This document shows, piece by piece, positions 15,930-64,000 of a DNA stretch of 64,000 bases (its first letter is position 1; each line of letters starts with the position of its first letter). Position numbers and translations under genes: made by a program. Source of the stretch: Streptomyces sp. NBC_00091 (GTDB lineage Bacteria > Actinomycetota > Actinomycetes > Streptomycetales > Streptomycetaceae); contig NZ_JAPEMA010000003.1 in assembly GCF_026343185.1 (NCBI RefSeq), positions 124,001 through 188,000 on the forward strand. Reading direction: 5' to 3'. Under the pieces are notes generated by a model. That model saw only the letters and a list, made by a program, of their open reading frames with translations, did not search any database and had not been told where the DNA came from.

Positions 15930-18130
15930 TCAGCCGAAGATCCAGAACCGTTCGCGCTGGAAGGGGTAGGTCGGCAGGTCCACGCCGTGGGCTCCGCTGC
16001 CCTCGAACACCGCAGCCCAGCCGACCGGCTCGCCGGCGCTGTGGAAGGCCGCGGCCAGGGCCAGCGGCGCACCGGCCACCGGGTCCGGCGACGGGGCGGG
16101 GGCCGGGGCGGCGGCCAGGGCCTCGGCAAGGCCCTCCGTCCAGTCCTCGCCGAGCGGTTCGCCGGAGTCGGCGTCCAGGAGGGCGATTTCCGGCCGTGCG
16201 GCACCCGTCACCCGGGGCTGTCCTCCGTCCGCGAGAACGGCCAGCGCCTCGACGGCCTGCTCCAGGGTGAGCGCGCCCGCCACGTGCGCGGCGGCGAGCC
16301 GGCCGGGGCCGGACACCAGCAGCGCCTGCGGGGCCAGGCCCCAGCTCTCGTACAGCCGGAACAGGGCCACCTCCTCGGCGAAGGCCTCGGCCACGGCCGG
16401 GAAGGGCGCCGCCAGCCGGACGTCGAGGTGCGCGCGTACGGCGTCCCAGGCGTCGGCGAAGACGGGCCGGGCCGCGTACAGGGCGTCCGCGAGGCCGCGT
16501 ACGGCCCCGGTGAACGCGATCCGCGCGGTGCCTTCCGTGACGACCCGGGGGTGCTCCTCGCCCCGCTCCACGGCGGCCAGCGCCTCGAGGAGCTCCTCGC
16601 GGCCGGCGGCGAGCAGCACCGCGCGGTGTTCGAAGGCGGCCCGGCCGGTGGCCAGGGTGAAGCCGACGTCGGCGGGGTCGAGGGCGGGGTCCTCGGCGAG
16701 TGCGGCGCCGATGCGCGCCGCCTGGGCCCGCAGCGCCTGCGGGGTGCGGCCGGACAGCGGGACCGCGACGGTGCCCGGAGCGGTACGGGCCGGGCCGGCG
16801 GGGGCCGGCTCCGGGGCGGGCGGCGCTTCGAGGATCAGGTGGACCTGGGTGCCGCTGGCGCCGAGCGAGGAGACGCCGGCCCGGCGCGGGCGGCCGGTCT
16901 CCGGCCACGGGGTGGGCTCGGTGACCAGGCGGACGGCGCCCGCCGACCAGTCCACGCGGCTGGTGGGCTCCTTGACGTTCAGCGTCTGCGGGAGCAGCGC
17001 GTGGCGCAGGGCCAGCACCGTCTTGATGACGCCGGTGACGCCGGAGGCGGACTGCGGGTGGCCGATGTTGGACTTGACGGTCGACAGCAGCAGCGGCCGG
17101 TCGGCCGGGCGGTCCTGGCCGTACGTCGCCAGCAGGGCCTCCGCCTCGATGGCGTCGCCGAGCGGGGTTCCGGTGCCGTGGCCCTCGACCGCGTCCACGT
17201 CCCGGGCGCTGAGGCCGGCGTCGGCCAGGGCCTGGCGGATGAGGCGCTGCTGGGAGATGCCGCTGGGGGCGGTGAGGCCGTTGCCGGCGCCGTGGTGGTT
17301 GACGGCGGAGCCCCGTACGACGGCCAGGACCGGGTGGCCCAGGCGCCGCGCCCGGGAGAGGCGTTCGACGAGCACCATGCCGGCGCCCTCGCCCCAGCCG
17401 GTTCCGTCGGCGTCCTCGGAGAACGGCTTGCAGCGGCCGTCGGCGGCGGCGCCGCCCATGTGGTGCCAGGCGACCGGGGCGGACAGGACGGTGACGCCGC
17501 CCGCGAGGGACATCGCGCACTCGCCGCGCCGGACCGACTGCACGGCCAGGTGCAGGGCGACGCCGGACGAGGAGCAGCCGGTGTCGACGGTGAGGGTCGG
17601 GCCGTGGATGTCGAGGGCGTAGGCGACCCGCCCGGAGGCGATGGCCGGGGCGATGCCGCTGCCGAAGTGCGGTTCGCTCTCCTCGGGGATCCGCTCCGTG
17701 GGCAGGAAGCCCTGGTAGCCGACGCCGATGTAGAGGCCGATCTGCTCGTCGGTGAGGCCGCGGGGGTCGACCCCGGCACGCTCGAACGCCTCCCAGGCGG
17801 TTTCGAGCAGGATCCGCTGCTGGGGGTCCATGACGAGGGCCTCGGCCTCGGAGATGCCGAAGAAGGAGGCGTCGAACTCGCCGATGCCGCGCAGCAGTCC
17901 GGCCTGGCTGAGGGTCTTGACGGCCTGGAAGTCCTCCTCGCCCCCGCCGTCGGCCGCGCCTTCGCCTTCGCCTTCACCGGGGAGGTCGGCGATCCGCCAG
18001 CCGCGGTCGCGCGGCAGGTCCCCGACGAGGTCCTCGCCCTCGGAGACCGCCTGCCACAGCTGTTCGGGGGTCTCTATGCCGCCGGGGAGGCGGCAGCTCA
18101 TGCCGACGATGACGACCGGGTCCTCGTCCT
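15930..18130 (-). other. Terminal KS with degenerate AT (KSX-like chain-transfer unit)
   Basis: The last about 730 residues of the final PKS are a KS without a following KR or ACP. Cys is kept but in DTGCSSSG rather than DTACSSS. One His motif reads EGHGTGT rather than EAHGTGT; the second, KSNIGHPQ, is kept. The following AT-like region lacks GHSxG (LLVSGPGRLAAAHVAG stands in its place) and has no YASH/HAFH equivalent, so it cannot load an extender. Polyether clusters such as monensin and nanchangmycin have KSX proteins, thought to move the full chain to a discrete ACP for oxidative cyclisation. Here that unit appears fused to the last module. Confidence 0.8.
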
Positions 18131-21100
18131 CGGCGGCGCCCTGGCCGGTGGCGGGCGCGGCCGTCTCCTGCTCGCCGGCGCCCAGGAGTTCGGCGCCGAG
18201 GAAACGGGCGAGGGCGACCGGGCTCGGGTGGTCGTAGACCAGGGTGGCCGGCAGGGTCAGTCCGGTCGCGGCGGTGATCCGGTTGCGCAGTTCGACGACG
18301 GTGAGCGAGTCGAAGCCGAGTTCCTTGAAGGCCCGGCCCGCCTCGACGGCCTCGCCCGAGGCGTGGCCGAGCACGGCGGCCGCCTGGGCCCGTACGAGGT
18401 CGGTCAGCAGGGTGGTGCGCTCGCCCGGGGAGGCCGCGCGCAGGCTGCGGACCAGGTCGGAGGAGGACTCGTCCACGGGCTGGGGCGCGGTGGGCGCGGC
18501 CTGCGGCACGAGGTCGGTGAGCAGGGCGCTGGGGCGCTCGGAGGTGAAGCCGGGCGCGAAGCGGGACCAGTCGACGTCGGCGACGGCGACGAAGGCCTCG
18601 TCGTGTTCGACGGCCTGGACCATGGCGTTCAGGGCGGCCTGCGGATCCATTTCGAGGACGCCGCGGCGGCGCATGTACTCCTGCGCCCCCTCGAGTTCCA
18701 TCATGCCGCCGCCGCCCCAGGCGCCCCAGGCGAGGGAGGTGGCGGTCAGGCCGCGGGCCCTGCGCCGTTCGGCGAGGGCGTCGAGGTAGGCGTTGGCGGA
18801 GGCGTAGGCGGTGTGCCGGGCGGCGCCCCACACTCCGGAGTTGGAGGAGAACAGGACGAAGGCGTCCAGGGCGGTGCCGTCGAGGAGGGCTTCGAGGTGG
18901 TCGGCTCCGGCCACCTTGGCGGCCGACAGCTGTTCGAACTCCGCGGCCGTGGTCTCGGCGCCGAGGGTGTACTGCGGTACGCCGACGGCGTGGACGACGG
19001 CGGTCAGGGGCTGCCCGGCCGGGATCGCGCCGAGGACCGCCTCGAGCTGGCCGCGGTCGGACACGTCGCAGGCGGCGAGCGTCACGTCGGCGCCCAGGGC
19101 GCGGAGCTCGGCGGCGAGTTCGGCGGCTCCCGGGGCGTCGGCGCCGCGCCGGCTGGTGAGGACGAGGTGGGCGGCGCCGGTGGCGGCGAGGCGGCGGGCG
19201 ACCTGCGCGCCGACGCCTCCGGTGCCGCCGGTGACCAGGACGGTCCCGGACGGCTCCCAGCGGCGGACCGGCTCGCGGTCGCCGAGCGGGGAGCGCACGA
19301 GGCGGCGGCCGAGGACGCCGCTGGTGCGGACGGCGACCTGGTCCTCGTCGCCGTAGCCGCCGGCCAGGACCTTGGCGAGCCGGTCGAGCGCGCGCTGGTC
19401 CAGGGTCGGTGGCAGGTCGACGAGGCCGCCCCAGCAGCCGGGCTGTTCGAGGGCGATGACCCGGCCGAGGCCCCAGACGCGGGCCTGTGCCGGTACGGCG
19501 GGGGCGTCGGCGCGGCCGGCGGCGACGGCTCCCTGGGTGGCGGCCCAGTGCCGGGCGGTGATCCCGGCGTCGGCCAGGGCCTGGACGAGGACGTGGGTGC
19601 CGGTGGCGCCGGCCGCCTCGTCGAGGCCGAGGAGGGAGAGGACGCCGCCGAGGCCGGGCAGGGCGGCGGTGGCCTCGCCGAGCCGGCCCGCGAGGGCCGC
19701 GCGGTCGGCGGTGGCGGGGTCGCTCTCGAGGACGACGGTCTCGACGCCGTGGGCCGCGAGGCCGGCGGCGACCGTGCCGGCCACGCCGGTGGCGGCGGGC
19801 GGGGTGACGATCAGCCAGGTGCCGGCCGGGGCGGAGGTGGCGGGGGCTGCGGTCAGCGGGGTCCAGGCGGCCTTGTAGCGCCAGGAGTCGAGGGTGGAGC
19901 GGGCCTGCTGTCCGCGCCGCCAGGTGGCGAGGGCGGGCAGCAGCTCGCCGAGGGCCCGGCGCTCCTCGAGGGCGAGGGTGCCGGCCAGGGCCTCCAGGTC
20001 CTCGGCCTCGACGGCCGCCCAGAACCGGGTCTCGGTCTCGTCGGCGGTGGCGGGGCCGGTGGTGGGGGCTTCGGGCCGGACGGGGGCGGGCTTGAGCCAG
20101 TAGCTCTGGCGCTGGAAGGCGTACGTGGGCAGGGCGACGGCGGCGGCGTCCCGGCCGGTGAGGACGGAGCTCCAGTCGACGTCGACGCCGCGGGTCCAGG
20201 CGGTGGCGAGCGAGGTGGTGAACCGGGCCAGGCCGCCCTCACCACGCCGCAGCGTGCCCGTCGCCAGGATCTCGGCGCCCGCGGCTTCGGCCGTCTCCAC
20301 CAGCCCGTACGTGAGCACCGGGTGCGCACTGGACTCCACGAACGCCCGGAAGCCCTCCGCCAGGAGGGAGCGGACGACGGGCTCGAACGACACCGGCCGC
20401 CGGCAGTTCTCGTACCAGTAGGCGGCGGTCAGCTCCGGCCCTTCCAGCACCTCACCCGTCACGGTGGAGTACAGCGGAACGGAGCCGGTCCGCGGCTCCA
20501 CGAAGCCCAGCAGGTCCAGGATCCGCTCCTTGAGGCGGTCGACCTGGGCGCAGTGGGAGGCCACCGTGGACGGCACGATCTTCGCCCGCACCCCCTCGGC
20601 CTCCAGGGCCGCGACCAGTTCCTCCAGCGGGGCCACCTCGCCGGCCACCGTCACCGCGCGCGGACCGTTGATGCCCGCGATGGACAGCGCGTCCCCGTAC
20701 GGGGCGATCCGCGACTCGGCCTCGGCGCGCGCCAGGGAGACCGAGGCGACGGCGCCCCGGCCGACGAGTTCGTCCGCGAACAGCTGCGAACGGAGCACGA
20801 CCACCTTGGCGCCGTCCTCCAGCGACAGCGCGCCCGACACGACGGCGGCGGCGATCTCGCCCTGCGAGTGACCCACGACCGCGTCCGGCACCACACCGGC
20901 CGCACGCCACAGCTCCGCCAGGGACACCATCACGGCGAACAGCACCGGCTGGAGCACCTCGATGCGCGTCAGCTCTCCGGCCCCGCGCAGCACCTCCTCG
21001 ACCGACCAGTCGACGTGGGCCTCGACGGCCGCCGCGACCTCGGCGAACCGGTCCGCGAACACCGGTGAGGTGTCGAGGAGTTCGACCCCCATACCGGCCC

Positions 21101-22787
21101 ACTGGGAGCCCTGGCCGGGGAAGACGAACACCGTCTTGCCGCCCGCGTCCGCCACACCCGCCGCGATGGGCGAGTCGAGGGCGGCGAGCAGCTCCTCGCG
21201 GGAGGAGCCGAACGCCACGGCCCGGTGGTCGAACGCCGACCGGGTCGCGGCCAGGGAGAGCGCCACGTCCTGCGGCCGCAGTGCGGGATCGGTCCGGACG
21301 AACTGCCGCAGGCGGGCGGTCTGCGCGGTCAGCGCCGCCGCTCCCTTGCCGGACAGCACCCACGGGAGCGGGCCGCCCGTGCCCACGGCCGGGGTGGCGG
21401 CGGGCGCCTCGACCGGGGGTTCCGGGGCTTCGGGGGCGGCTTCCAGGATGGCGTGCGCGTTGGTGCCGCTGAGGCCGAAGGAGGACACGGCGGCCCGGCG
21501 CGGGTGGTCGGTCTCGGGCCAGGACCGGGACTCCAGCAGGAGTTCGACGTCGCCGGCGGCCCAGTCGATGTGCGGGGAGGGCGCGTCCACGTGCAGGGTC
21601 TTGGGGAGCACCCCGTGGCGCAGCGACATGACGGTCTTGATGATGCCGCCGACGCCGGCCGCCGCCTGGGTGTGCCCGATGTTGGACTTGATCGAGCCGA
21701 GCAGCAGCGGCCGGCCCTCGGGCCGGCCGCGCCCGTAGGTGGCGAGCAGGGCGTTGGCCTCGATGGGGTCGCCGAGGGTGGTGCCCGTGCCGTGCGCCTC
21801 GACCGCGTCGACCTGGTCGGGGGTGAGCCGGGCGTTGGCGAGTGCGGCGCGGATGACGCGCTGCTGGGCCTTGCCGCTGGGGGCGGTGAGGCCGTTGCTG
21901 GCGCCGTCCTGGTTGATGGCGGAGCCCCGGATGACGGCGAGCACCTCGTGGCCGTTTCGGCGCGCGTCGGAGAGCTTCTCCAGCAGGACCAGGCCGACGC
22001 CCTCGGAGAAGGAGGTCCCGTCGGCGCCGGCCGCGAACGCCTTGCAGCGGCCGCTGAACGCCATGACCCCCTGGGCGCTGAAGCCCACGAACAGGCCGGG
22101 GGACGCCATCACGGTGACCCCGCCGGCCAGGGCGAGCGAGCACTCGCCCTGGCGCAGCGCCTGGGCCGCGAGGTGCACGGCGACCAGGGAGGAGGAGCAC
22201 GCGGTGTCGATGGTGACCGCGGGGCCCTCGAAGCCGTACGTGTAGGAGAGCCGGCCGGAGATCACACTGGCCACGGAGCCGGTGACGAGGTGCCCCTCGG
22301 CGCCCTCGGCCTCGTCACCGAGGCTCTGGGCGTACGAGGGCTGGGAGGCGCCGATGTAGACGCCGGTCTGGGTGCCCTTGAGCCGGACCGGGTCGATGCC
22401 GGCCCGCTCCAGCGCCTCCCAGGAGGCCTCCAGCAGCAGCCGCTGCTGGGGGTCCATCGCGAGGGCCTCGCGCGGCGAGATCCCGAAGAACGCGGCGTCG
22501 AACTCGTCGACGTCGGGGACGAACGCGGCTTCGCGCACCGTTCCCGTGTCGCCGAGGTCCCAGCCGCGGTTGTCGGGGAAGCCGGAGACGGCGTCCCCCT
22601 CCTTGGCGACGAACTCCCAGAGGTCTTCGGGGGATTCGATGCCGCCGGGGAAGCGGCAGCTCATGGCGACGACGGCGATGGGCTCGTGCGCGGCGTCCAC
22701 CAGGTGCTGGTTCTGCCGGCGCAGCCGGTCCGTCTCCGTCAGCGACGCCCGCAGCGCTTCGACGACCTTTTCCGAGGGGGTGCTCAT
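15930..22787 (-). CDS. Type I PKS, final extension module (ethylmalonyl, KR) plus terminal KS-degenerate AT
   Basis: A 2285-residue PKS. Order: N-terminal docking helix (1-30), KS (Cys196 in DTACSSS), AT (Ser near 639 in GHSQGE; VASH near 743), KR (VTGGTGGVG near 1184, Tyr near 1326, Trp in NSGVWG, A type), ACP (GFDSL near 1491), second KS (Cys near 1738), degenerate AT, stop. No DH, second ACP or thioesterase. VASH instead of YASH points to ethylmalonyl-CoA. On the narasin backbone this module adds C1-C2 with the 2-ethyl group and leaves a 3-hydroxyl. Start ATG 22787 is the one that opens the docking helix STPSEKVVEALRASLTETD. The docking helix differs from those of the other PKS proteins and should pair with the unusual tail of the preceding one, 31 bases upstream. 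The terminal KS unit is described separately. Confidence 0.93.
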   Translation of the reverse strand: MSTPSEKVVEALRASLTETDRLRRQNQHLVDAAHEPIAVVAMSCRFPGGIESPEDLWEFVAKEGDAVSGFPDNRGWDLGDTGTVREAAFVPDVDEFDAAFFGISPREALAMDPQQRLLLEASWEALERAGIDPVRLKGTQTGVYIGASQPSYAQSLGDEAEGAEGHLVTGSVASVISGRLSYTYGFEGPAVTIDTACSSSLVAVHLAAQALRQGECSLALAGGVTVMASPGLFVGFSAQGVMAFSGRCKAFAAGADGTSFSEGVGLVLLEKLSDARRNGHEVLAVIRGSAINQDGASNGLTAPSGKAQQRVIRAALANARLTPDQVDAVEAHGTGTTLGDPIEANALLATYGRGRPEGRPLLLGSIKSNIGHTQAAAGVGGIIKTVMSLRHGVLPKTLHVDAPSPHIDWAAGDVELLLESRSWPETDHPRRAAVSSFGLSGTNAHAILEAAPEAPEPPVEAPAATPAVGTGGPLPWVLSGKGAAALTAQTARLRQFVRTDPALRPQDVALSLAATRSAFDHRAVAFGSSREELLAALDSPIAAGVADAGGKTVFVFPGQGSQWAGMGVELLDTSPVFADRFAEVAAAVEAHVDWSVEEVLRGAGELTRIEVLQPVLFAVMVSLAELWRAAGVVPDAVVGHSQGEIAAAVVSGALSLEDGAKVVVLRSQLFADELVGRGAVASVSLARAEAESRIAPYGDALSIAGINGPRAVTVAGEVAPLEELVAALEAEGVRAKIVPSTVASHCAQVDRLKERILDLLGFVEPRTGSVPLYSTVTGEVLEGPELTAAYWYENCRRPVSFEPVVRSLLAEGFRAFVESSAHPVLTYGLVETAEAAGAEILATGTLRRGEGGLARFTTSLATAWTRGVDVDWSSVLTGRDAAAVALPTYAFQRQSYWLKPAPVRPEAPTTGPATADETETRFWAAVEAEDLEALAGTLALEERRALGELLPALATWRRGQQARSTLDSWRYKAAWTPLTAAPATSAPAGTWLIVTPPAATGVAGTVAAGLAAHGVETVVLESDPATADRAALAGRLGEATAALPGLGGVLSLLGLDEAAGATGTHVLVQALADAGITARHWAATQGAVAAGRADAPAVPAQARVWGLGRVIALEQPGCWGGLVDLPPTLDQRALDRLAKVLAGGYGDEDQVAVRTSGVLGRRLVRSPLGDREPVRRWEPSGTVLVTGGTGGVGAQVARRLAATGAAHLVLTSRRGADAPGAAELAAELRALGADVTLAACDVSDRGQLEAVLGAIPAGQPLTAVVHAVGVPQYTLGAETTAAEFEQLSAAKVAGADHLEALLDGTALDAFVLFSSNSGVWGAARHTAYASANAYLDALAERRRARGLTATSLAWGAWGGGGMMELEGAQEYMRRRGVLEMDPQAALNAMVQAVEHDEAFVAVADVDWSRFAPGFTSERPSALLTDLVPQAAPTAPQPVDESSSDLVRSLRAASPGERTTLLTDLVRAQAAAVLGHASGEAVEAGRAFKELGFDSLTVVELRNRITAATGLTLPATLVYDHPSPVALARFLGAELLGAGEQETAAPATGQGAAEDEDPVVIVGMSCRLPGGIETPEQLWQAVSEGEDLVGDLPRDRGWRIADLPGEGEGEGAADGGGEEDFQAVKTLSQAGLLRGIGEFDASFFGISEAEALVMDPQQRILLETAWEAFERAGVDPRGLTDEQIGLYIGVGYQGFLPTERIPEESEPHFGSGIAPAIASGRVAYALDIHGPTLTVDTGCSSSGVALHLAVQSVRRGECAMSLAGGVTVLSAPVAWHHMGGAAADGRCKPFSEDADGTGWGEGAGMVLVERLSRARRLGHPVLAVVRGSAVNHHGAGNGLTAPSGISQQRLIRQALADAGLSARDVDAVEGHGTGTPLGDAIEAEALLATYGQDRPADRPLLLSTVKSNIGHPQSASGVTGVIKTVLALRHALLPQTLNVKEPTSRVDWSAGAVRLVTEPTPWPETGRPRRAGVSSLGASGTQVHLILEAPPAPEPAPAGPARTAPGTVAVPLSGRTPQALRAQAARIGAALAEDPALDPADVGFTLATGRAAFEHRAVLLAAGREELLEALAAVERGEEHPRVVTEGTARIAFTGAVRGLADALYAARPVFADAWDAVRAHLDVRLAAPFPAVAEAFAEEVALFRLYESWGLAPQALLVSGPGRLAAAHVAGALTLEQAVEALAVLADGGQPRVTGAARPEIALLDADSGEPLGEDWTEGLAEALAAAPAPAPSPDPVAGAPLALAAAFHSAGEPVGWAAVFEGSGAHGVDLPTYPFQRERFWIFG

Positions 22788-22818
22788 GGATGTGATCTCC
22801 GGATCTCGTCTTCGCGGA

Positions 22819-25800
22819 TCAGTGGTTGTCGCCGTCCAGGGCCAGGGACACGAGATCGTCGAGGTCCATCGTGGCGATCGAGTCCTCCCGTGCCCCGGTG
22901 TGGTCGGACGTGGGCGGTTCGGCCGCCGGGCTGCCCGCCAGCCGCAGCAGCGTGTCGAGGACACCCGCTTCGCTCAGCCGGGCCAGCGGGAGGGTGGCCA
23001 GGGCCCGCCGCAGGTGTGCCTCGTCGACCGGTGCGCCCGTCGCCGTCGGGTCCGCCCCGGTGTCCGTCGCTCCGGTCTCCGGGGCGAGTTCGTCCCGCAG
23101 GTGGTCCGCGAGTTCGACCGGGGTGGGGTGGTCGAAGACGATGGTCGCGGGCAGCCGCAGTCCGGTGGCCGCGCCGAGCCGGTTGCGCAGTTCGACGGCG
23201 GTCAGCGAGTCGAAGCCGAGCTCCTTGAAGGCCCGGTCGGCCTCGATGGATCCGGGGTTGGCGTGGCCCAGGACGGCCGCCACGTTGGTCCGTACGAGGT
23301 CCAGCAGCACGGTGCGGCGGCGCTCGGCGGAGAGCCCGGCGAGCTTGCGGGTGAGCGCGGAGCCGTCCGGTTCCGCCGTGGCGGCGGTTCCCGCGGCCCG
23401 GCGCACCGGGGTGCGGACGAGGGAGCGGTACAGCGCGGGCAGGCCGGCCCCGCCGGCGGAGTCGCGCAGCGCGGCCGGGTCGAGCCGGACGGGGACGCTC
23501 AGTGCCTCGTCCTGGTCCACGGCCGCGTCGAACAGGGCGAGGCCCTGTTCCGCGGTGAGCGGGGTGACGCCGCCGCGGCTGAACCGGGCCAGGTCGGTGT
23601 CGTCGAGTCCGGCCGTGAGCTCGCTGGTCTGGTGCCACATGCCCCAGGCGAGGGAGGTGGCGGGCAGGCCCTGGGCCCGGCGGTGGTGGGCGAGCGCGTC
23701 CAGGTAGGTGTTGGCGGCGGCGTAGTTGGCCTGGCCGGAGTTGCCGGTCACGCCCGCGGCCGAGGAGTAGAGCACGAACCGGCTCAGGTCCAGGTCGCGG
23801 GTGAGCTCGTGGAGGTTCCACGCGGCGTCCACCTTGGGCCGCATGGCGCGCTCCATGCGTGCCGGGGTGAGCGAGGCGAAGACTCCGTCGTCGACGACCC
23901 CGGCCGCGTGCACCACCCCGGTCAGCGGCCGGTCGGCGGGGATGGCGGCGAGCAGGGCGGCCAGCGCGTCGCGGTCGGCGGCGTCGCAGGCCACGACCTC
24001 GGCCGTAGCGCCCAACTCGGCTATCTCGGCGACGAGTTCGGCCGCCCCGGGGGCGTCCGGGCCGCGCCGGCCGGCCAGCAGCAGGTTCCGTACGCCGTGC
24101 TCGGTGACCAGGTGCTTGGCGACCAGCGCGCCCAGGGTGCCCGTACCGCCGGTGACCAGGACGGTGCCGGCCGGGTCCCAGCCCTGCGGGACCGTCAGGA
24201 CGATCTTGCCGGTGTGCTTGGCCTGGCTCATGAACCGGAAGGCCTCCGGGGCCCGCCGGATGTCCCAGGTGCGGGTGGGCAGCGGCCGCAGCTCATCCGT
24301 CTCGAACAGGCCCGCCAGTTCGGTGAGCATCGCGGCGGTGCGCTGCGGACCGGCCTCGGCCAGGTCGAAGCGGCGGTAGTGGACGCCCGGGTGGTCCAGG
24401 GCGACCTGTGCGGCGTCGCGGACGTCGGTGGCGCCGAGCTCGACGAAGCGGCCGCCGCGCGGCAGCAGCCGCAGCGAGGCGTCGACCAGGTCCCCGGCCA
24501 GGCAGTCCAGGACGACGTCTACGCCCTCGCCGCCGGTGGCGGTGGAGAAACGCTCCTCGAAGGAGGCGTCACGGGAGGAGGCGATGTGGGCGTCGTCGAG
24601 ACCGGCCGCGCGCAGCGCGTCCCACTTGCCCTCGCTGGCCGTGCCGAACACCTCGGCACCCAGGTGCCGGGCGATCTGCACCGCCGCCGAACCCACACCA
24701 CCGGCCGCGGCGTGCACCAGCACCCGCTCGCCGGCCTTCAGCCCCGCCAGGTCCACCAGCGCGTAGTACGCGGTGAGGAACGCGGCGGGCACCGAGGCGG
24801 CCTTCTCGAAGGACCAGCCCTCGGGGACGCGCGCCACCATCTGGGCGTCGGCGACCGCGAGGGGGCCGAAGGCGTGCGGCACCATGCCCATCACCCGGTC
24901 GCCCGGGGCGAGGTGGGTGACGCCCGGGCCGGTTTCGACGACCACACCGGCCGCCTCGCAGCCCATGAACCCGCCGCCCGGGTACATCCCGAGGGAGACC
25001 AGGACGTCGCGGAAGTTGAGCCCGGCGGCGTGTACGGCGATGCGCACCGCACCCTCGGGCAGCGGCTGCGCCGCCTCCGGCCGGGGCCGCAGGGCCAGGT
25101 GGTCGAGGGTTCCGGCGGCGGTGGTGTCCAGGGCCCAGGCAGCGGCGCCGCCCGGTACCGGCAGGGCCGTGCCCGAGCCGGCCCGGACCAGGCGCGGCGC
25201 CAGGGCGGTGCCGGCGCGCAGCGCGGTCTGCGGCTCGTCGTGGACGAGGGCCGCGGCGACCGCGCCCCGCAGGGCGGCGGCGGACTCCTCGGTGGTGTCG
25301 AGGTCGGCGATCAGGAGCCGGCCGGGGTTCTCGGCCTGGGCCGAGCGGATCAGCCCCCAGGCGGGTGAGTGCGCGAGGCCGGTGGCGTCCTCGCCGGTAC
25401 GGGTGGCGACCGCGCCGTGGGTGAGGACGACCAGCCGGGATCCGGCGAAGCGTTCCGCGGCCACCCACTCCTGCACGGTGGCGAGCAGGGCGGCCGCCTC
25501 GGCGTGGACCTCGGCGAGTGCGCCGTCCGGGCTCGGGCTCGCGTCCGGGGCTCCGTAGGGCAGGACCACGGTCTGCGGCAGGGCCGCGCCGTCGGCGGCG
25601 GCGAGGGCCGCGAGGTCCTCGTACCGGTCGACGGCAGCGCCCGCGCCCTCCAGGGCGGCCGCGATGCCGGGTGCGGCGGAGCCGATGACGGCCCAGTTCC
25701 CGGCGGCGGAGGCATCGGCGTGGGCGGGCAGTTCCGTCCATTCGAGGCGGAACAGCCCGTCGGTGCCGCCGTCGCCGCCCTGGCGCAGGGTGGCCGTGTC

Positions 25801-28800
25801 GACGGGACGCAGTACGAGCGCGTCGACGGTGGCGACCGGTGCGCCGGCCGCGTCGCAGACGTCCACCGCGATGGTGTCGGTGCCCGCCGCGCTGACGCGG
25901 ACCCGCAGGGTGCCGGCGCCGGCCGCGTGGAGGGCGACGCCGCTCCAGGCGAAGGGCAGCCGGGCCTGGCCGGTCAGCTCGATGAACTCGCCGAGCCGCA
26001 TGGCGTGCAGCGCGGCGTCGAGCAGTGCGGGGTGCAGGAGGTACCGGGCCGCTTCGCCCTGGTGGCTGTCGGGCAGCGCGACCTCGGCGAAGACGTCCCC
26101 GGTGGACTCCTGGCGCCACGCGGCGCGCAGGCCCTGGAAGGCGGGGCCGAACTGGTAGCCGGTCTCGGCCGCGGCGGCGTAGAAGCCGTCGAGGTCGACG
26201 GGCTCGGCGCCGACGGGCGGCCAGGCGGTCAGGTCGTGGCCGGGGGCGCCGGCGTCCCGGGTGAGGACACCGCTGGCGTGGCGGGTCCAGGGCAGGTCGG
26301 CGGGGGCGTCCTCGGCGCGGGAGTGGATGGTGACCGGACGGGTGCCGGAGCCGCCTTCGGGGCCGACCAGCACCTGGAGGTGGACACCGCCGCGGGCCGG
26401 GAGGACCAGCGGTGCTTCGAGGGTGAGCTCGTCCAGCAATGTGAACCCGGCTTCGTCGCCGGCGCGGACGGCCAGTTCGACGAAGGCGGTGCCGGGGAGG
26501 ATGGGCGTGCCGGACACCGCGTGGTCGGCGAGCCAGGACTGGGTGTCGGGGGCGATCCGGCCGGTGAACAGGAGGCCTTCGCCGCCCGCGAGGCTCACGG
26601 CCGCACCGAGCAGCGGGTGCCCGGCGTCCGAGAGCCCGAAGCCGGTGGCGTCGCCGGAGAAGGGCGGCAGCGGGTCCGGCCAGAAGGGCTCGTTCTGGAA
26701 GGCGTACGTCGGCAGGTCGATGCGCGCGGCGTCCTGGCCGGCGTAAACGGCCTGCCAGTCGACGGGGGCGCCGTGGGTCCAGGCCTCGGCGAGGGAGGCC
26801 AGGAAGCGCTGGGCCCCGCCTTCGTCGCGGCGCAGTGTGCCCTGGGTGACGGCGGAGGTGCCGGCGGCCTCGATGGTCTCCTGGACGCCGATGGTCAGCA
26901 CCGGGTGGGCACTGGACTCCACGAAGACCTTGTGGCCGCGCTCCAGGAGAGCGGCGATGGCGTCCTGGAAACGGACGGTGCGGCGGAGGTTGGTGTACCA
27001 GTACTCGGCATCCAGCTCGGAGCCGTCGGCCCACTCCCCCGTGACGGTGGAGAAGAACGGGGTCTCGGCGGTGCGCGGCTCGATCCCGGCCAGCAGGCCG
27101 ATGACCTCGTCGCGGATGGACTCGACCTGGGGACCGTGCGAGGCGTAGTCGACGTTGATGCGGCGGGCGCGGACGCCGTCGGCCTCGCAGGCGGCCATCA
27201 GCTCGTCCAGGGCCTCGGGGTCACCGGAAACCACCGTGGACTGCGGACCGTTGACCGAGGCCAGCGCGAGCCGCTCACCCCAAGCGGAGATACGTTCCGC
27301 CACCGCATCGGCGGTGTCGGCCACCGACACCATGCCGCCCTTGCCCGCCAGCGCCAGCAGCGCCTTGGCACGCAGCGCCGACACCTTCGCCGCGTCCTCC
27401 AACGACAACGCGCCGGAGACGGCGGCAGCGGCGATCTCGCCCTGGGAGTGGCCGACGACGGCCGCCGGAACGACTCCGGCCGCACGCCACAGCTCGGCCA
27501 GGGAGACCATCACGGCCCACAGGGCCGGCTGGACCACGTCCACCCGGTCGAAACCGGGCGCACCGTCCTTCTGGCGCAGGACGTCGAGGAGCGACCAGTC
27601 CGTGTACGGGGCCAGAGCGCGCTCGCAGTCGTCGAGGCGGGCGGCGAACTCCGGCGAGGAGTCGTAGAGCTCCACCGCCATCCCCGCCCACTGGGAGCCC
27701 TGCCCCGGGAAGACGAACACCGGACGGCCGGTGCCCTTGACGACGGCGCCCTCGGTGACGCCGACGCCGGGCGTGCCCTCGGCCAGGGCGGTGAGCCCGG
27801 CGAGGAGTCCGTCGCGGTCGTCGGCCTGGACCGCGCCGCGGCGTTCCAGGGCGGCCCGGCTGGTGGCCAGCGACCAGGCGACGTCCACCGGGCGCAGCGC
27901 CTCGGCGCCGTCGGCCGCGGCGAACTCCCGCAGCCGCCCGGCCTGGCCGCGCAGGCCGGCCGTACCGCGCCCGGAGACGATCCAGGGCAGTGCGGCAGCC
28001 GGGAAGGCCGGGACGGCGGGTACGCGGGCGGGCTCCTCGGTCTGCGGCGCCTGCTCCAGCACGACGTGGACGTTGGTGCCGCTGCCGCCGAAGGAGGACA
28101 CGCCGGCGCGGCGCGGGCGGCCCGTCTCGGGCCACGGCCGGGCCTCGGTCAGCAGTTCCACGGCGCCCGAGGACCAGTCGATCTCGCGGGCCGGCTCGGC
28201 GACGTGGAGGGTCTTGGGCAGCATGCCGTGGCGCAGCGCCATGACGGTCTTGATGATGCCCGCGACGCCGGAGGCGGCCTGGGAGTGGCCCAGGTTGGAC
28301 TTCAGGGAGCCCAGCCACAGGGGCTGCTCGGCGGTGTGGGCCTGGCCGTAGGTGGCGAGCAGGGCCTGGGCTTCGATGGGGTCGCCGAGGGTGGTGCCGG
28401 TGCCGTGCGCCTCGACGGCGTCGACGTCGGCGGGTTCGAGTCCGGCGTCGGCGAGGGCCGCGCGGATGACGCGCTGCTGGGCGGGGCCGCTGGGGGCGGA
28501 GAGGCCGTTGCTGGCGCCGTCCTGGTTGGCGGCCGTACCGCGGATGACGGCGAGGACCTGGTGGCCGTTGGCCTGTGCGTCGGAGAGGCGCTCCAGCATG
28601 ATCACGCCGACGCCCTCGGACCAGCCGGTGCCGTCGGCGTCCTCGGAGAAGGACTTGCAGCGGCCGGACGGGGAGAGTCCGCCCTGCTGGCTGAAGCCGA
28701 TGAAGACGCCGGGCGAGCACATGACCATCGCGCCGCCCGCGAGCGCCATGCGGCAGTCCCCGGTGCGCAGGGCCTGCACGGCGAGGTGCAGGGCGGTCAG

Positions 28801-42100: not shown

Positions 42101-43417
42101 CGGACGGCCGGTCTCCGGCCAGGCACGGGCCTCGGTCAGCAGCTCCACGGCGCCCGAGGCCCAGTCGATCTTCGGGGAGGGCGCGTCGACGTGCAGGGTC
42201 TGCGGGAGCAGGCCGTTGCGCATCGCCATGACCATCTTCATCACGCCGGCCGCGCCCGAAGCGGCCGAGGTGTGGCCGATGTTGGACTTCACGGAGCCGA
42301 GCCACAGCGGCCGGTCGGCGGGCCGGTTCTGCCCGTACGTGGCGAGCAGGGCCTGGGCCTCGATCGGGTCGCCGAGGGTGGTGCCGGTGCCGTGCGCCTC
42401 GACGGCGTCGACGTCGGCGGCGGCGATGCGGGCGCTGGCGAGGGCCTGCTTGATGACCCGCATCTGGGCGGGCCCGTTGGGGGCGGTGAGCCCGTTGCTG
42501 GCGCCGTCCTGGTTGACGGCCGTGCCGCGGACCACGGCCAGGATCCGGCGGCCGGCCCGGCGGGCGTCGGAGAGCCGTTCGACGAGGAGCATGCCGACGC
42601 CCTCGGCGGGCCCGAAGCCGTCGGCGGCGGCGGCGAAGGCCTTGCAGCGGCCGTCGGCGGCGAGCGCCCGCTGGCGGCTGAACTCCACGAACCCGGCGGG
42701 GTTCGACATGACGGTGACACCGCCGACGAGGGCCATGGAGCATTCGCCGGTGCGCAGGGCCTGGGCGGCCATGTGCAGGGCGACGAGGGAGGAGGAGCAG
42801 GCGGTGTCGATGGTGACGGCCGGGCCCTCGAGGCCGAGGGAGTAGGCGAGCCGGCCGGACATGACGCTGGCGAGGTTGCCGGTGCCGAGGTAGCCCTCCA
42901 GCTCGTCCGGGGCCTCGAGGATGCCGGTCGTGTAGTCGATGGCGCTGAAGCCGACGAAGGTGCCGGTGAGGCTGCCGGTGAGGGTGGCGGGGTCGATCCC
43001 GGCGCGTTCGACGGCCTCCCAGCCGGTCTCCAGGAGCAGGCGCTGCTGGGGGTCCATGGCGAGGGCCTCGCGCGGGGAGATCCCGAAGAAGCCGGCGTCG
43101 AACTCGTCGACGTCGTGCAGGAAGCCGCCTTCCTGCACGTAGTTGGTGCCCGGCTTGTCGGGGTCGGGGTCGTAGAGGGATTCGATGTCCCACCCGCGGT
43201 TGACGGGGAAGCCGCCGACGGCGTCGCCGCCGGCCGCGACCAGCTCCCACAGGTCTTCGGGGGAGCTCACCCCGCCCGGATAGCGGCAGGCCATGCCGGT
43301 GATCGCGATCGGTTCGTGGCCGGCCGACTCGGCGGCCTGCAGCCGCTTGCGGGTCTGCTGCAGGTCGGCCGTCGCCCGCTTGAGGTATTCGAGGAGCTTT
43401 TCTTCGTTGTTCGCCAT
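39137..43417 (-). CDS. Type I PKS, single module KS-AT-DH-ACP lacking KR
   Basis: 1426 residues. Docking helix ([19 protein letters not shown]), KS (Cys206), AT (GHSQGE near 666, YASH near 768, methylmalonyl), DH ([11 protein letters not shown] near 978, LLDAALH near 1145), ACP (GFDSLTA near 1304), docking tail. There is no KR or ER. The DH keeps its His and Asp but should have no beta-hydroxyl to act on, so the beta-keto group stays. On the narasin backbone this is C9-C10 with the C11 ketone. The DH is nearly the same as that of the preceding fully reducing module, and the sequence after it resumes at a TPVRR linker like that behind a KR, so ER-KR seem deleted in frame. ATG 43417 follows GGAGATACCGACC. 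Confidence 0.95.
39670..39785 (-). other. Likely ER-KR deletion scar between DH and ACP
   Basis: The DH end ([10 protein letters not shown]) joins an Ala/Gly-rich linker and then RTPVRR, about 40 residues before the [14 protein letters not shown] stands at the same place after the KR of the fully reducing module at 22819-34089. The junction therefore reads as DH fused to a post-KR linker. Confidence 0.65.
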
Positions 43418-52500: not shown

Positions 52501-54789
52501 GCGACGGGCGCGGACGCCGTCGGCCTCGCAGGCGGCCATCAGCTCGTCCAAGGCCTCCGGATCACCGGAAACCACCGTGGACTGCGGGCCGTTCACCGAA
52601 GCCAGCGCGAGCCGCTCACCCCAAGCGGAGATACGTTCCGCCACCGCATCGGCGGTGTCGGCCACCGACACCATGCCGCCCTTGCCCGCCAGCGCCAGCA
52701 GCGCCTTGGCACGCAGCGCCGACACCTTCGCCGCGTCCTCCAGCGACAACGCGCCCGAGACGGCCGCGGCCGCGATCTCGCCCTGGGAGTGACCCACGAC
52801 AGCCGCCGGAACGACCCCCGCCGCACGCCACAGCTCCGCCAGCGACACCATCACCGCCCACAACGCCGGCTGGACCACATCCACCCGGTCGAAACCGGGC
52901 GCACCGTCCTCCTGCCGCAGGACATCCAGCAGCGACCAGTCCGTGTACGGGGCCAAAGCCTCGGCGCACGCGTCCAGGCGGGCCGCGAACACCGGCGAGG
53001 AGTCGTACAACTCCACCGCCATCCCCAGCCACTGCGAACCCTGCCCCGGGAAGACGAACACCGGACGGTCCGCGCCCTTGACTACGGCGCCGTCCACGAC
53101 CCCCGCCGCCGGAAGCCCGGCGGCCAGGGCGTCCAGGCCGGTCAGGAAGCCGTCCCGCTCCCCCGCCAGTACGACGCCGCGCCGCTCCAGAGCGGCCCGC
53201 GTCGTGGTCAGCGCCCCGGCCACCACGGCCGGTTCGACGGCGGTGTCGGACTCCGCGTAGGCGCGCAGCCGGGCCGCCTGCCCGTGCAGGGCCTCGGTGG
53301 TCTTGCCGGACACGGTCCACGGGACCAGGCCGCCGGTGACGACGGTCTCGGCGGGCGCCCCGGGCTCGGCGCTCTCGGCGTCGCCCTCGGCCCCGTCCTG
53401 TGCGAGGTGCTGCTCCAGGATGATGTGGGCGTTGGTGCCGCTGATGCCGAACGAGGAGACTGCGGCCCGGCGCGGGCGGCCGTCGACGGTCCAGTCCGCG
53501 GGCTCGGTGAGGAGTTCCACCGCGCCGGAGGACCAGTCGATGTGCGGGGACGGCTCGTTGACGTGGAGGGTCTTGGGAAGGACGCCGTTGCGCATCGCCA
53601 TGACCATCTTGATGACGCCGGCGATGCCCGAAGCGGCCTGCGTGTGGCCGATGTTGGACTTCACGGAGCCCAGCCGCAGCGGTGTGGCGTCCGCGGGCCG
53701 CTGGCCGTAGGTCGCCAGCAGCGCCCCGGCCTCGATCGGGTCGCCGAGGGCCGTTCCGGTGCCGTGCGCCTCAACGACGTCGACGTCGTGGGTGGACAGC
53801 CGGGCGTTGGCGAGGGCCTGCTTGATGACGCGCTGCTGGGAGGGGCCGTTGGGGGCGGTCATGCCGTTGCTGGCGCCGTCCTGGTTGGTCGCCGAACCCC
53901 GTACGACGGCCAGTACCTCGTGGCCGTTGCGCACGGCGTCGGAGAGCCGCTCGACGAGCAGGATGCCGGCGCCCTCGGCGAGCGCCATGCCGTCGGCACC
54001 CTCGGAGAAGGCCTTGCAGCGGCCGTCGGCGGCCATGCCGCGCTGCTCGCTGTAGCCGATGAACTCCAGCGGGGTGGACATGACGGTGACGCCGCCGACG
54101 AGGGCCATGGAGCACTCGTCGGCGCGCAGCGCCTGCGCGGCCATGTGCAGGGCGACGAGTCCCGAGGAGCAGGCGGTGTCGACGGAGACGGCCGGGCCCT
54201 CCAGGCCGAAGGTGTAGGCGACGCGGCCGGAGACGACGCTCGCCGCGCTGCCGGTGGTCAGGTGGCCCTCGTACCCCTCGGGGATGGAGGGCAGGGACCA
54301 GCAGTAGTCGAGGTTGTAGCAGCCGACGAAGGTGCCGGTGCGGCTGCCCTTCACGGACTGCGGGTCGATTCCGGCCCGCTCGAACGCCTCCCAGGCGGCT
54401 TCCATGACGAGGCGCTGCTGCGGGTCCATCGCGAGGGCCTCGCGCGGCGAGATGCCGAACACGCCCGGGTCGAACGCGCCGGCCTCGTAGAGGAATCCGC
54501 CTTCCTTCACGTAGGTGCGGCCGGAGCGCTCGGGGTCCGGGTCGTAGATCGCGTCGAGGTCCCAGCCGCGGTCCTCGGGGAAGGGGCCGATGGCGTCCCC
54601 GCCGTCCGACACCAGGCGCCACAGGTCCTCCGGCGACGCGACGCCACCGGGGAAGCGGCAGGCCATGCCGACGATCGCGATCGGCTCGTGCCCGGCATCC
54701 TCGACCTCGCGCAGCCGCTGCTTCGTCTCGTGCAGATCGGTGGTGACCCACTTGAGGTAATCGCGGAGCGTCTCTTCGTTCGTCGCCAT
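43537..54789 (-). CDS. Type I PKS, two modules: KS-AT-DH-ER-KR-ACP and KS-AT(ethylmalonyl)-KR-ACP
   Basis: 3750 residues. Module 1: KS (Cys206), AT (GHSQGE near 666, YASH near 769), DH ([10 protein letters not shown] near 976, LLDAALH near 1142), ER (NFRDVMI near 1483, [12 protein letters not shown] near 1581), B-type KR (LDD; near 1766, Tyr near 1911), ACP (near 2080). Module 2: KS (Cys near 2316), AT (near 2774, VASH near 2878), A-type KR (near 3313, Tyr in GGYAPGN near 3455), ACP (near 3628), docking tail. On the narasin backbone: C13-C14 with 14-methyl and C15 methylene; then C11-C12 with 12-ethyl and a 13-hydroxyl. The ethylmalonyl AT and its KR are nearly the same as those of the last PKS module. 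ATG 54789 follows GAGGTCCCC; upstream in-frame sequence is not needed because the docking helix [15 protein letters not shown] starts here. Confidence 0.94.
49257..50117 (-). repeat. ER-KR tract nearly identical to 23925-24785
   Basis: Partner of the tract at 23925-24785, at a constant offset of 25,332 bases. The ER cofactor-binding half and the KR N-terminal half are almost identical. The sequence between them has diverged, including the ER end and its linker. Confidence 0.8.
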
Positions 54790-54854: not shown

Positions 54855-59792
<4,938 letters not shown>

Positions 59793-59828
59793 CTGGCGGG
59801 AGCTCCTTGGATGACGTTCCGGCACGGG

Positions 59829-62800
59829 CTACGACTTGCCGAGCTCTTCGTGGATGAACGCGAAGATCTCTTCGGCCGAGGCGGACGCCAGCTCGTCGTG
59901 GGCGTCGGCTTCTTCGGCCTTCTCCGGGTTCGCGCCGCCCCACTTGGTGAGCAGCACCTGGAGCCGGCCGGCAATGCGGTGGCGGGCCCCGTCGTCCGGG
60001 GTGAGCCGGGTGAGGGCCGCGTCGATGCGGTCGAGGCCGGCGAGGACGGACTGGTCCGTCTCGATCTCGCCGTCGAGCAGGTGTTCGCGCAGGTGCTGGG
60101 CGAGTGCGGCGGGGGTGGGGTGGTCGAAGAGGAGGGTCGCGGACAGCTTCAGGCCGGTGTCGGCCGCGACCCGGTTGCGCAGTTCGACCGCGCTGAGCGA
60201 GTCGAAGCCCAGGTCCTTGAAGGGCCGTGCCTCCTGGACCCCGTCGGCGGTGCGGTGTCCGAGCACCGCGGCCGCGTGTCCGCGGACCAGTTCGACGAGG
60301 AGGTGCTGCTGTTCGGCGGGCGCGGCGGCGGCGAGCCGCTGCTTGAGGGCGGACGCCGAAGCGGCGGCGCCCTGCGCGTTCTCCGGGCCGTCCTGCGTCA
60401 GCGCTTCCCTCACGTCGGGGAGTTCGCTGATCAGGGCGCTGTGGCGCATGGCCGTGTACGTGGGGGCGAACAGCGCCCAGTCGACGTCGGCGACCCCCAC
60501 ACAGGTCTCGTCGAGGTCGAGGGCCTGCTGGAGGGCGGCGATGGCGGTGTCCGGCGCGATGCCGATCACGCCGCGGCGGCGCAGGTGCTCGTCGATGTCC
60601 TCGGAGGCCGCCATGCCGGCTTCCGCCCAGGGGCCCCAGGCCACGGCGGTGGCGGGCAGGCCGTGGGCCCGGCGGCGTTCGGCGAGCGCGTCGAGGTGGG
60701 CGTTGGCGGCCGCGTACGCGGCCTGGCCGCCGCTGCCCCACATGCCGGCGCTGGACGCGAAGACGACGAACGCGGACAGGTCCAGGTCGCGGGTGAGTTC
60801 GTCGAGCAGGTCGGCGGCGACCGCCTTGGGCCGCAGGACGTGCGCCAGGTGGCCGGCGGTGACCTCGTCCATGAACCCGTTGTCGGAGACGCCCGCGGCG
60901 TGGACGACGGCGGTCAGCGGGCGGTCCGCCGGTACGGAGGCCAGCAGGGCGGCCAGCTGGTCGCGGTCGGCGACGTCGCAGGCGGCGAGGGTCACCTCGG
61001 TGCCCGACGCGCGCAGTGCGGCGGCGAGTTCGGCGGCGCCGGGGGCGTCCGCGCCGCGCCGGCTGGCCAGCAGCAGGTGCTCGGCGCCGCCTTCGGCGAG
61101 CCAGCCGGCGAGGCGGCTGCCCAGGGCGCCGGTGCCGCCGGTGACCAGGACGGTTCCGGTGGGCCGCCACGGTGCGGCGGCCGGCCGGGCGGCCGGTGCG
61201 GGGGCGCGGCGCAGGCGGCGTACCTGGACGCCGGCGCCGCGGACGGCGAGCTGGTCCTCACCGTCGGGCGCGGCCAGGACGCCGGCGAGGCGGGCGGCGG
61301 CCCGCTCGTCGAGGTCGTGCGGCACGTCGACGAGGCCGCCCCAGCGGTCGGGGTACTCGAGGGCGGCGACCCGGCCGAGCGCCCACACCTGGGCCTGGGC
61401 CCCGGTGGGGTCGGCCGTCGGGTCGGAGGGTCCGGTGGAGACGGCGCCGCTGGTCAGGTTCCACAGCGGGGCGCCGATGCCGGCGTCGCCGAGGGCCTGT
61501 GCCAGGGCGGCGGTCGCGGCGAGCGCGGCGCTGACCCCGGGCTGGGCGGTGTGCGGGCGGACGTCGAGCGGGAGCAGGGATAGCACGCCGGCGAGGTCCT
61601 CGCCGGTGCCCGCCCCGTCGCGCAGCCGGGCGGCCCATGCGGTGCGGTCGGCGGCGGTGGCGTCGAGGCGCAGGGCCGTGGTGGTGGCGCCGGCCGCGGT
61701 GAGCGCGGCGGCGGCCCGGTCGGCGAGCGGCCCGGCGGCGGGGCCCGCGCCGTCGGGTACGACGAGCAGCCAGTGTCCGCTCGCGCGGGTGGCGGCCGGG
61801 TCGGCGGCGGGCTTCCAGGTGATGCGGTAGCGCCAGGAATCGATGGTGTGCTGCTCGCGGCGGCCGCGCCGCCAGTGGGACAGGGCGGGCAGGACGGTGC
61901 GCAGCTGCTCCTCGTCGGGCAGCCGGAGGGTCCCGGCGAGCTCCTGGAGGTCCTCGCGTTCGACGGCCGCCCAGAACTCGGTGTCGACCTCGTCCTGTGC
62001 GCCGGGGCCGCTGCCCCCGCCGGCGGGGGCGGCGTCGAGCCAGTAGCGGCTGCGCTGGAAGGCGTACGTGGGGAGGTCCACCCGGCAGGCGGGCCGGTCG
62101 GCGAGCGGCGGGGTCCAGTCGACGGGCAGGCCGCGGGTCCAGGCCTCGGCGAGGGCGCCGAGGAAAGCCTCCGGCTCGGGACGGTCCTTGCGCAGCACGG
62201 GGGTCAGCAGCCCGGAGAAGGTCTCAGGAAGCGACTCCCCCGCCATGGCGGCGAGGACGCCCTGGGGGCCCAGCTCCAGGAAGTGGGTGACGCCCTGTCC
62301 GGCGAGGTGGGCGACACCGTCCCCGAAGCGGACCGCGCCCCGGACGTGCCGGACCCAGTAGTCGGCCGTGAACTCCGTGATCTGCCCGCCGGTCACGTTC
62401 GAGACGACCGGGATCGCGGGAGCGGTGTAGGTGAGGGATTCCGCGACCTCGCGGAAGGCCTCCAGCATCGGCTCCATCAACGGCGAGTGGAAGGCGTGCG
62501 AGACGGTCAGCCGCTTGGTCTTGCGACCCTGCTCGGCCAGCTTGGCGGCCACCTCCAGGACAGCCTGCTCGGCGCCCGAAATCACCAGCGAGGAAGGCCC
62601 GTTGACCGCCGCGATGTCGACATCGGCCGACAGCAGCGGGCGCACCTCGTCCTCGGTGGCCCGTACGGAGACCATCGCCCCGCCCTCGGGCAGGGCGCCC
62701 ATCAGGGCACCACGGGCCGCCACCAGACGAGCCGCGTCAGCGAGGGAGAGGACCCCGGCGACGTGCGCGGCCGCGATCTCACCGATGGAGTGACCGGCGA

Positions 62801-64000
62801 CGAAGTCCGGACGGAGTCCGTAGGACTCCAGCACCCGGAAGAGCGCGACCTCGATGGCGAACAGCGCGGGCTGGGTGACCTCCGTGCGGTGGACCTCCTC
62901 CCCGCCACCGAAGACGAGCTCCTTCAGCGGCAGGTCGAAGTGGGCGCACACCTCGTCGAAGGCGTCCGCGAACAGCGGCTGCTCCTCGTACAGTTCACGC
63001 CCCATGCCCGGCCGCTGCGCGCCCTGACCCGAGAACAGGAAGGCGGTACGGGCGCCCGGGACGGACTCGCCCCGGAAGGTGCCGGGCGCCGAGGCGCCGG
63101 CCGCGAGGGCGTCGAGGCCCTCCAGGTAGCCCTCCCGGCTGTCGGCCAGCACCACCGCGCGGCTCTCCAGCTGGGCGCGCCAGGCCAGCAGCGCGGAGGC
63201 GGTGCTCGCCGTGTCCAGCCCGGGGCACGCCTCGGTGAGGTCGCGCAGGCGGCGCGCCTGCTCGGTCAGGGCGTCCGGGGTGCGGGCGGAGACCAGCCAG
63301 GGCAGCAGCTCGCCGGGCGCGGGCTCCGGGGCGGGCACGGGCTCCTGCTCCTGCTCCTGCGGGCCCTCTTCGATGATCACGTGGGCGTTGGTGCCGCTGA
63401 CGCCGAACGAGGAGACGCCGGCCCGGCGCGGGCGGCCGGTCCGCGGCCACTCCGCGGCCTCGGTGAGCAGCTCCACCGCGCCCGCGGACCAGTCCACGTG
63501 CGGGGACGCCTCGTCGACGTGCAGGGTCTTGGGCAGCACCCCGTGCCGCATGGCCATGACCATCTTCATGATGCCGGCGACACCGGCGGCGGCCGAGGTG
63601 TGGCCGATGTTGGACTTGATCGAGCCGAGCAGCAGCGGCCGGTCCTCCGGCCGGTCCTGGCCGTACGTGGCCAGCAGGGCCTGGGCCTCGATCGGGTCGC
63701 CCAGCGCGGTGCCCGTACCGTGCGCCTCGACGGCGTCCACGTCCTGCGCCGTCAGCCGCGCGTTGGCCAGCGCCTGGCGGATCACCCGCTGCTGGGAGGG
63801 CCCGTTGGGGGCCATGAGGCCGTTGCTGGCGCCGTCCTGGTTGGTCGCCGTCCCCCGGACGACGGCCAGGACCCGGTGGCCGTTGGCCTGGGCGTCGGAG
63901 AGCTTCTCCAGGAGGAGCACGCCGGCACCCTCCGACCAGGCGGTGCCGTCGGCGGAGGAGGAGAACGCCTTGCAGCGGCCGTCGGCGGCCAGGCCGCGCT
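59829..64000 (-). CDS. Type I PKS (partial): KS-AT(malonyl)-KR-ACP
   Basis: The 3' part of a PKS gene whose 5' end is beyond the right edge; at least 1390 codons. Visible parts: KS from [10 protein letters not shown] onward with [11 protein letters not shown] and [14 protein letters not shown] ([14 protein letters not shown] near 62,790 and HAFH near 62,490), the malonyl pattern and the only malonyl AT in the window; active KR (TGGTGALG near 61,150, Tyr in QAAYAAAN near 60,715, Trp in AGMWGSGG, A type); ACP near 60,195; docking tail ending HEELGKS. The KS active-site Cys lies outside. On the narasin backbone it adds C17-C18 and leaves a 19-hydroxyl, the group that must be lost to make the C18-C19 double bond. 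The next PKS starts 36 bases after its stop. Confidence 0.94.

Follow-up and report, generated by a model that had tools for sequence, protein, structure and literature searches.

The 64,000-nucleotide stretch of Streptomyces sp. NBC_00091 analysed here (contig NZ_JAPEMA010000003.1, positions 124,001 to 188,000; hereafter the window, meaning the whole stretch) appears to carry the distal portion of a polyether cluster of the salinomycin/narasin type, whose main product is predicted to be 20-deoxynarasin (C43H72O10), a reading to which we assign a probability of about 0.72. The cluster is a variant of a well-known polyether type that lacks a pair formed by a P450 and its ferredoxin, the presumed C20 hydroxylase. 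The initial annotation had proposed narasin itself. The backbone half of that proposal stands, since nine modules and the acyltransferase domain of module 13 (AT13) predict a 4-methyl chain, but the C20 hydroxylation is in doubt. Narasin is weakened as the product because the pair occurs in the post-PKS (polyketide synthase) block of Streptomyces sp. NBC_01276 (plasmid unnamed2, NZ_CP108444.1) and of Streptomyces bambusae, but neither in the window nor in Streptomyces sp. W1SF4 (plasmid p2, NZ_CP034352.1). 20-Deoxynarasin is therefore the likelier product, unless another P450 acts. We take it to be a known compound, and found no mention of "deoxynarasin" in the literature searched. The computed [M+Na]+ values are 771.502 for 20-deoxynarasin, 787.497 for narasin, 773.481 for salinomycin and 757.486 for 20-deoxysalinomycin; the first is predicted for the window strain and W1SF4, the second for NBC_01276.

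Nine modules with narasin-type programming

The PKS block occupies the minus strand between the right edge and position 15930, and its modules are numbered M6 to M14. It comprises seven type I PKS genes, six of them complete and the seventh cut by the right edge, which together hold nine extension modules. The open gene, salAIII-like (59829..64000), contains module 6 as KS-AT(malonyl, HAFH)-KR-ACP, its KS lying only partly inside the window, and accounts for the C17-C18 unit and the C19 hydroxyl. The salAIV-like gene (54855..59792) encodes module 7, AT(methylmalonyl)-degenerate KR-ACP, for the C15-C16 unit and the C17 ketone. In the salAV-like gene (43537..54789), module 8 is AT(methylmalonyl)-DH-ER-KR, giving the C15 methylene, and module 9 is AT(VASH, ethylmalonyl by position)-KR, giving the C13 hydroxyl. 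The salAVI-like gene (39137..43414) carries module 10, AT(methylmalonyl)-DH-ACP without a KR, for the C11 ketone; the starts of the salAIV-, salAV- and salAVI-like genes were inferred from ATG codons. Module 11, AT(methylmalonyl)-KR for the C9 hydroxyl, is encoded by the salAVII-like gene (34142..39097), and the salAVIII-like gene (22819..34083; 3754 residues) follows with module 12, AT(methylmalonyl)-KR for the C7 hydroxyl, and module 13, AT(methylmalonyl, narasin-type)-DH-ER-KR for the C5 methylene. Last comes the salAIX-like gene (15930..22790, start approximate) with module 14, AT(VASH)-KR-ACP without a DH; its C-terminal end bears an extra KS (KSX), then an AT-like remnant lacking GHSxG.

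From right to left, the AT motifs are HAFH, YASH, YASH, VASH, YASH, YASH, YASH, YASH and VASH. Pfam scans of the AT-to-ACP pieces returned KR, KR, DH-ER-KR and KR for modules 6 to 9, and DH, KR, KR, DH-ER-KR and KR for modules 10 to 14. The KR of module 7 matches the Pfam KR model, yet its motifs are degenerate: the NADPH site reads GAAGPLG, as it also does in W1SF4 and NBC_01276, and FAAAN replaces the YAAAN-like motif of the other KRs. From domain content and motifs follow ketones at C17 and C11, methylenes at C15 and C5, and ethyl groups at C12 and C2. The DH of module 10 (39137-43414) keeps its HxxxGxxxxP motif, though it is left without a substrate because the module has no KR.

Thus the extenders and oxidation levels that had been assigned to the nine modules were borne out by AT motifs and Pfam domains, and the C1-C19 reading is supported for each module by AT motifs, reductive domains and gene split. 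With A, P and B for malonyl, methylmalonyl and ethylmalonyl, the window's modules follow the extender series A-P-P-B-P-P-P-(A or P)-B and the states OH-keto-CH2-OH-keto-OH-OH-CH2-OH. Against the structures of salinomycin and narasin, which also supplied the expected pattern for the permutation below, agreement with salinomycin is 9/9 in oxidation state and 8/9 in extender; with narasin it is 9/9. When the order of the modules was permuted with composition fixed, 16 of 362,880 orders reached the full narasin match (mean match 1.9), and these 16 are swaps of identical module types, hence effectively one order. Agreement by chance, already judged improbable in the initial annotation, is rejected by this permutation together with the collinear tailoring genes. 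An excerpt of PMC4602208 describes a salinomycin PKS of nine genes, with AIV, AVI, AVII and AIX single-module and AI, AII, AIII, AV and AVIII two-module; the split in the window after the open gene, 1/2/1/1/2/1 modules, is the same as that from the end of salAIII to salAIX.

Upstream modules departing from salinomycin would speak against this reading, and in the two relatives the loader and modules 1 to 5 continue the pattern to C30. By motif, both W1SF4 and NBC_01276 have a KSQ loader and 14 modules. In NBC_01276, motifs and Pfam describe modules 1 to 3 as ethylmalonyl-type DH-KR, malonyl DH-ER-KR and methylmalonyl DH-KR, and modules 4 and 5 as malonyl DH-ER-KR and malonyl without reduction; the upstream modules of W1SF4 were read by motif only, a reading that does not extend to the ER of module 4. 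Right of the cluster, both plasmids encode a crotonyl-CoA carboxylase/reductase and a 3-hydroxyacyl-CoA dehydrogenase, a proximity that fits a supply of ethylmalonyl units.

Specificity of AT13 and gene conversion among AT domains

The methylmalonyl-type AT for the C3-C4 unit, in the initial annotation the sole difference from salinomycin, was confirmed. AT13 carries YASH; its protein identity is 92.6-94.8% with AT7, AT8 and AT10 but 35.9% with AT6, the malonyl-type domain. Because of the near-identity to the former three, methylmalonyl at C3-C4 is a strong call. All seven AT13s compared are of YASH type: those of the window, NBC_01276, W1SF4, WAC07149, SPB4, NPDC020490 and S. bambusae, salinomycin-type clusters or, for WAC07149, SPB4 and NPDC020490, AVIII-like proteins examined alone, among the matches listed. 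Proteins P0049 and P0056, which differ in length and module layout, were left out of the count. No salinomycin-type (malonyl) AT13 occurred among the seven, a set that does not include the S. albus AT13. For salinomycin, section 7 of PMC9228677 gives malonyl, methylmalonyl and ethylmalonyl units as 5/6/3, whereas the W1SF4 and NBC_01276 clusters count 4/7/3, and the proposed narasin versus salinomycin difference at AT13 rests on this contrast.

The AT domains also record exchange within each PKS. When 18 AT sequences of the window, W1SF4 and NBC_01276 were placed in one tree, AT11 and AT12 clustered by module (99/98 and 100/98), whereas 10 of the 12 sequences of AT7, AT8, AT10 and AT13 fell in strain-specific forks. 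The W1SF4 fork unites all four (95/92), with AT7 and AT8 together at 100/100, the NBC_01276 fork holds AT7, AT8 and AT13 (99/99), and a weaker one for the window holds AT8, AT10 and AT13 (90/93). The window AT7 and the NBC_01276 AT10 are unplaced, and the deepest forks are weak (78/87).

A DNA identity profile of module 13 in 150-column steps, comparing orthologues and paralogues, delimits the exchanged part. Across the KS, identity to orthologues (94-99%) exceeds that to paralogues (65-85%), as it does in the KS-AT linker (90-97% versus 56-79%). Between roughly -18 and +180 residues relative to GHSxG, a span that includes the specificity motif, the order is reversed: orthologues fall to 85-91%, while modules 8 and 10 reach 91-97% and module 7 84-94%. 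Past the AT, orthologues again lead (91-96% versus 59-74%). The core of the tract lies at 26907..27507 on the minus strand, where the 91-97% to the module 8 and 10 paralogues exceeds the 85-91% to the W1SF4 and NBC_01276 orthologues. Judged from these identities, the profile shows gene conversion among the ATs, with a tract that spans the AT13 specificity motif. Self-alignment by blastn listed no repeats of 300 bp or longer, so the repeat claim rests on the pairwise AT identities, the tree and the module 13 profile.

GRINS, a gene-conversion signature in PKS repeats (Nivina et al. 2021, as summarised in parts of PMC10394414 and PMC9899208), resemble these AT repeats, which are about 0.6-0.75 kb long and more than 90% identical within one PKS (GRINS measure about 1 kb; the tract here is shorter). 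They differ in that the nucleotide skew of the AT7, AT8, AT10 and AT13 tracts stays below the thresholds given in those parts (GC and TA skew above 0.25, or mean absolute above 0.15); AT8 comes nearest, with 0.149 and 0.149. GRINS was accordingly rejected as the exact class of these repeats, which agree with it in identity but fall short in skew.

Absence of the P450-ferredoxin pair

NBC_01276 encodes, in the interval from the exporter to the methyltransferase-like gene, a P450 and a ferredoxin that are supported by Pfam and named here as salD-salF candidates. S. bambusae has the pair in the same order, adjoining its slnM-like gene; compared with NBC_01276, its P450 is 92.7% identical over residues 52-406, where the contig ends, and its ferredoxin 82.9% over 76 residues. 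Alignment of the window with NBC_01276 falls into four collinear blocks (5177-8117, 8147-13556, 13613-14482 and 14499-64000). At the junction 13556..13613, NBC_01276 jumps by 1603 bases that contain the pair, and at the other two junctions by 33 and 65 bases. W1SF4 is collinear with the window across 13556-13613 and thus also lacks the pair, which makes a sequencing or assembly artefact at this site unlikely. A tblastn search of the 64-kb window with the NBC_01276 P450 gave nothing better than E=1.5, and SalD-SalF was not encountered as a cluster member within the window. The whole W1SF4 plasmid p2 gave a single P450 match (43%), beside a different PKS.

Section 7 of PMC9228677 names SlnE and/or SlnF as the proposed hydroxylase of C20, and an excerpt of PMC8601195 presents salD/salF as a P450 and its ferredoxin; we infer that the two papers describe the same pair. 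SY-1, according to an excerpt of PMC3613094, is natural 20-deoxysalinomycin, and SY-2 its C17 epimer. Since the pair occurs in S. bambusae and as the salD-F unit of S. albus, loss rather than gain is indicated.

The proposed pathway would begin with synthesis of the 4-methyl chain by the PKS. SalBIII would close ring A, SalC would epoxidise C24=C25 and C28=C29, BI/BII would close other rings, and SlnM would remove the C19 hydroxyl and form the spiroacetal. Without SalD/SalF, C20 would remain an unhydroxylated CH2 and the product would be 20-deoxynarasin, possibly accompanied by its C17 epimer, in analogy to SY-1 and SY-2 for salinomycin.

Weighing of the product assignment

Several points weigh against 20-deoxynarasin. 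The P450 search covered the window rather than the source genome, where a P450 may lie elsewhere; the role of the pair at C20 is a proposal in the section cited of PMC9228677, not the result of a deletion; and modules 1 to 5 were read in relatives rather than in the window. Moreover, four of the five tailoring proteins compared are more similar to their counterparts in NBC_01276, where the pair is present, than to those in W1SF4, where it is missing: SlnM (95.6 vs 90.8%), the ABC ATPase (96.5 vs 94.0%), SalC (95.2 vs 94.5%) and the LAL regulator (94.0 vs 93.3%), SalBIII showing the opposite (97.7 vs 98.4%). The absence shared by the window and W1SF4 therefore needs recombination or two losses, and on these comparisons recombination or a second loss likely lies behind it.

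Narasin itself would be made if a P450 encoded elsewhere hydroxylated C20. The backbone is that of narasin and Streptomyces genomes are rich in P450s (in NBC_01276 the SalD candidate has 38 matches at E<=0.001, itself included), but the pair is absent from its place, the best second copy in the NBC_01276 genome reaches 47%, and the 138 plasmid records outside NBC_01276 that match the P450 at E<=1e-60 are all below 60% identity; we consider this outcome unlikely. Less probable still is a silent or broken cluster without product. One end of the PKS lies outside the window and the cluster is known here from its sequence, but the genes seen are open, and the 61 kb aligning to W1SF4 in one block at 93.3% suggest purifying selection. 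The least probable product is salinomycin or its 20-deoxy form, made if the methylmalonyl-type AT13 used malonyl or if the C4 methyl were absent for another reason. That all seven AT13s are alike leaves some room for it, the difference from salinomycin producers resting on a published unit count, not on sequence; however, AT13 has its 92.6-94.8% identity to ATs that install, by position, the methyls at C16, C14 and C10, and the 5/6/3 units of the PMC9228677 section stand against 4/7/3 in both plasmid clusters. We regard this as very improbable, and 20-deoxynarasin remains our preferred product.

Tailoring, export and flanking genes

Next to the PKS block lies a SalBIII-like pyran synthase for ring A (15361..15747, minus strand; 128 residues), which keeps Asp38 and Asp104. 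It is identical at 94 of 128 positions to PDB 5cxo, deposited as 'epoxide hydrolase'; of the eight active-site residues named for SalBIII in an excerpt of PMC4648038, 5cxo has all eight at the same numbers and the window seven, with Val for Ile65. There follow, all on the minus strand, a type II thioesterase (14509..15291), an LCM-family protein (13628..14449) that family, place and literature make a candidate SlnM/SalE-like methyltransferase-fold dehydratase/spirocyclase (C18=C19), an ABC exporter ATPase (12405..13358) and an ABC exporter permease (10780..12408), in which a Pfam scan found no family and which is named solely by collinearity with W1SF4 and NBC_01276. Two MonB-type epoxide hydrolases/cyclases (SalBI/BII-like; 10244..10693 and 9789..10232) lie on the plus strand and match LasB and MonB structures. 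Back on the minus strand are a SalC-like flavin epoxidase (8143..9579; best PDB matches Lsd18/LasC and MonCI), a LuxR/LAL-type regulator (5184..7994) and an APC-family permease (3087..5132), common to W1SF4 and without matching DNA here in NBC_01276.

In the left flank (window 1-3087), an acyl-CoA dehydrogenase (about 28-763) is followed by a fatty acyl-AMP ligase frame (1246-3087). A similar pair, its ligase about 66% identical in DNA, sits on the other side of the cluster, the right, on both plasmids; the flank has accordingly been rearranged. Both plasmids also have, to the left of the polyether genes, another PKS set that includes a macrolide-type glycosyltransferase and a P450 of its own (2882-22184 in sub-stretch L082 and 7922-27545 in L085). 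The SalBIII of S. bambusae SK60 shares 99% identity with its NBC_01276 counterpart, the last PKS gene about 82%; about 6.3 kb separate the end of the last PKS frame (9861) from the salBIII-like gene (16172).

Three overlapping genome samples contained SlnM-like proteins (E<=1e-60) in 1 of 199, 2 of 392 and 1 of 394 genomes, the second genome being apparently S. bambusae; the SalD candidate (E<=1e-150) occurred in 1 of 150. SlnM matches at E<=1e-40 came from 63 plasmid records, of which two, W1SF4 and NBC_01276, reach at least 90% identity.

Significance

Narasin is a veterinary coccidiostat, and no title on its cluster appeared among the matches listed in the literature search. We tentatively propose, at somewhat less than even odds, that a plasmid-borne narasin lineage diversifies through gene conversion overwriting AT13 and clean excision of the C20-hydroxylase operon. 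In this two-edit proposal, the AT conversion and the absence of the operon were demonstrated above, and conversion may have changed the specificity of AT13. If the proposal is true, conversion of AT13 by the cluster's own methylmalonyl ATs sets the 4-methyl of narasin versus the hydrogen of salinomycin, and excision of the operon yields 20-deoxynarasin producers. The locus could serve as a reference narasin-type cluster and as a naturally occurring knock-out of the enzyme presumed to hydroxylate C20, and the AT exchange, recorded with visible borders, could guide AT swaps. Because the cluster is plasmid-borne in two relatives, the pathway may move as a unit; the probable contig of the window, 507,348 bases long, would likewise suit a large plasmid.

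Comparison with known clusters

The linear 313-kb plasmid p2 of W1SF4 matches the window in one 61,064-bp alignment (93.3%, window 3104-64000), has the same module motifs and also lacks the P450-ferredoxin pair; it differs in its left flank, which diverges outward from about window position 3100. The linear 475-kb plasmid of NBC_01276 (474,642 bases) shares the programming, with 14 modules and a YASH AT13, but has the pair and lacks the APC permease at the corresponding place. The salinomycin cluster (sal/sln) of Streptomyces albus, for which SalBIII was the sole sequence compared, differs from the window in AT13, methylmalonyl-type here and, as the published unit count implies, malonyl in salinomycin, and in the salD-salF candidates absent here. 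Common to both are the gene split, the oxidation pattern of the modules, a final module without a DH (in the PMC4648038 excerpt, the last sal module has none and SalBIII forms ring A), SalBIII itself (94/128 to 5cxo) and the SalC- and BI/BII-like genes; the LCM-family protein is a candidate SlnM/SalE counterpart.

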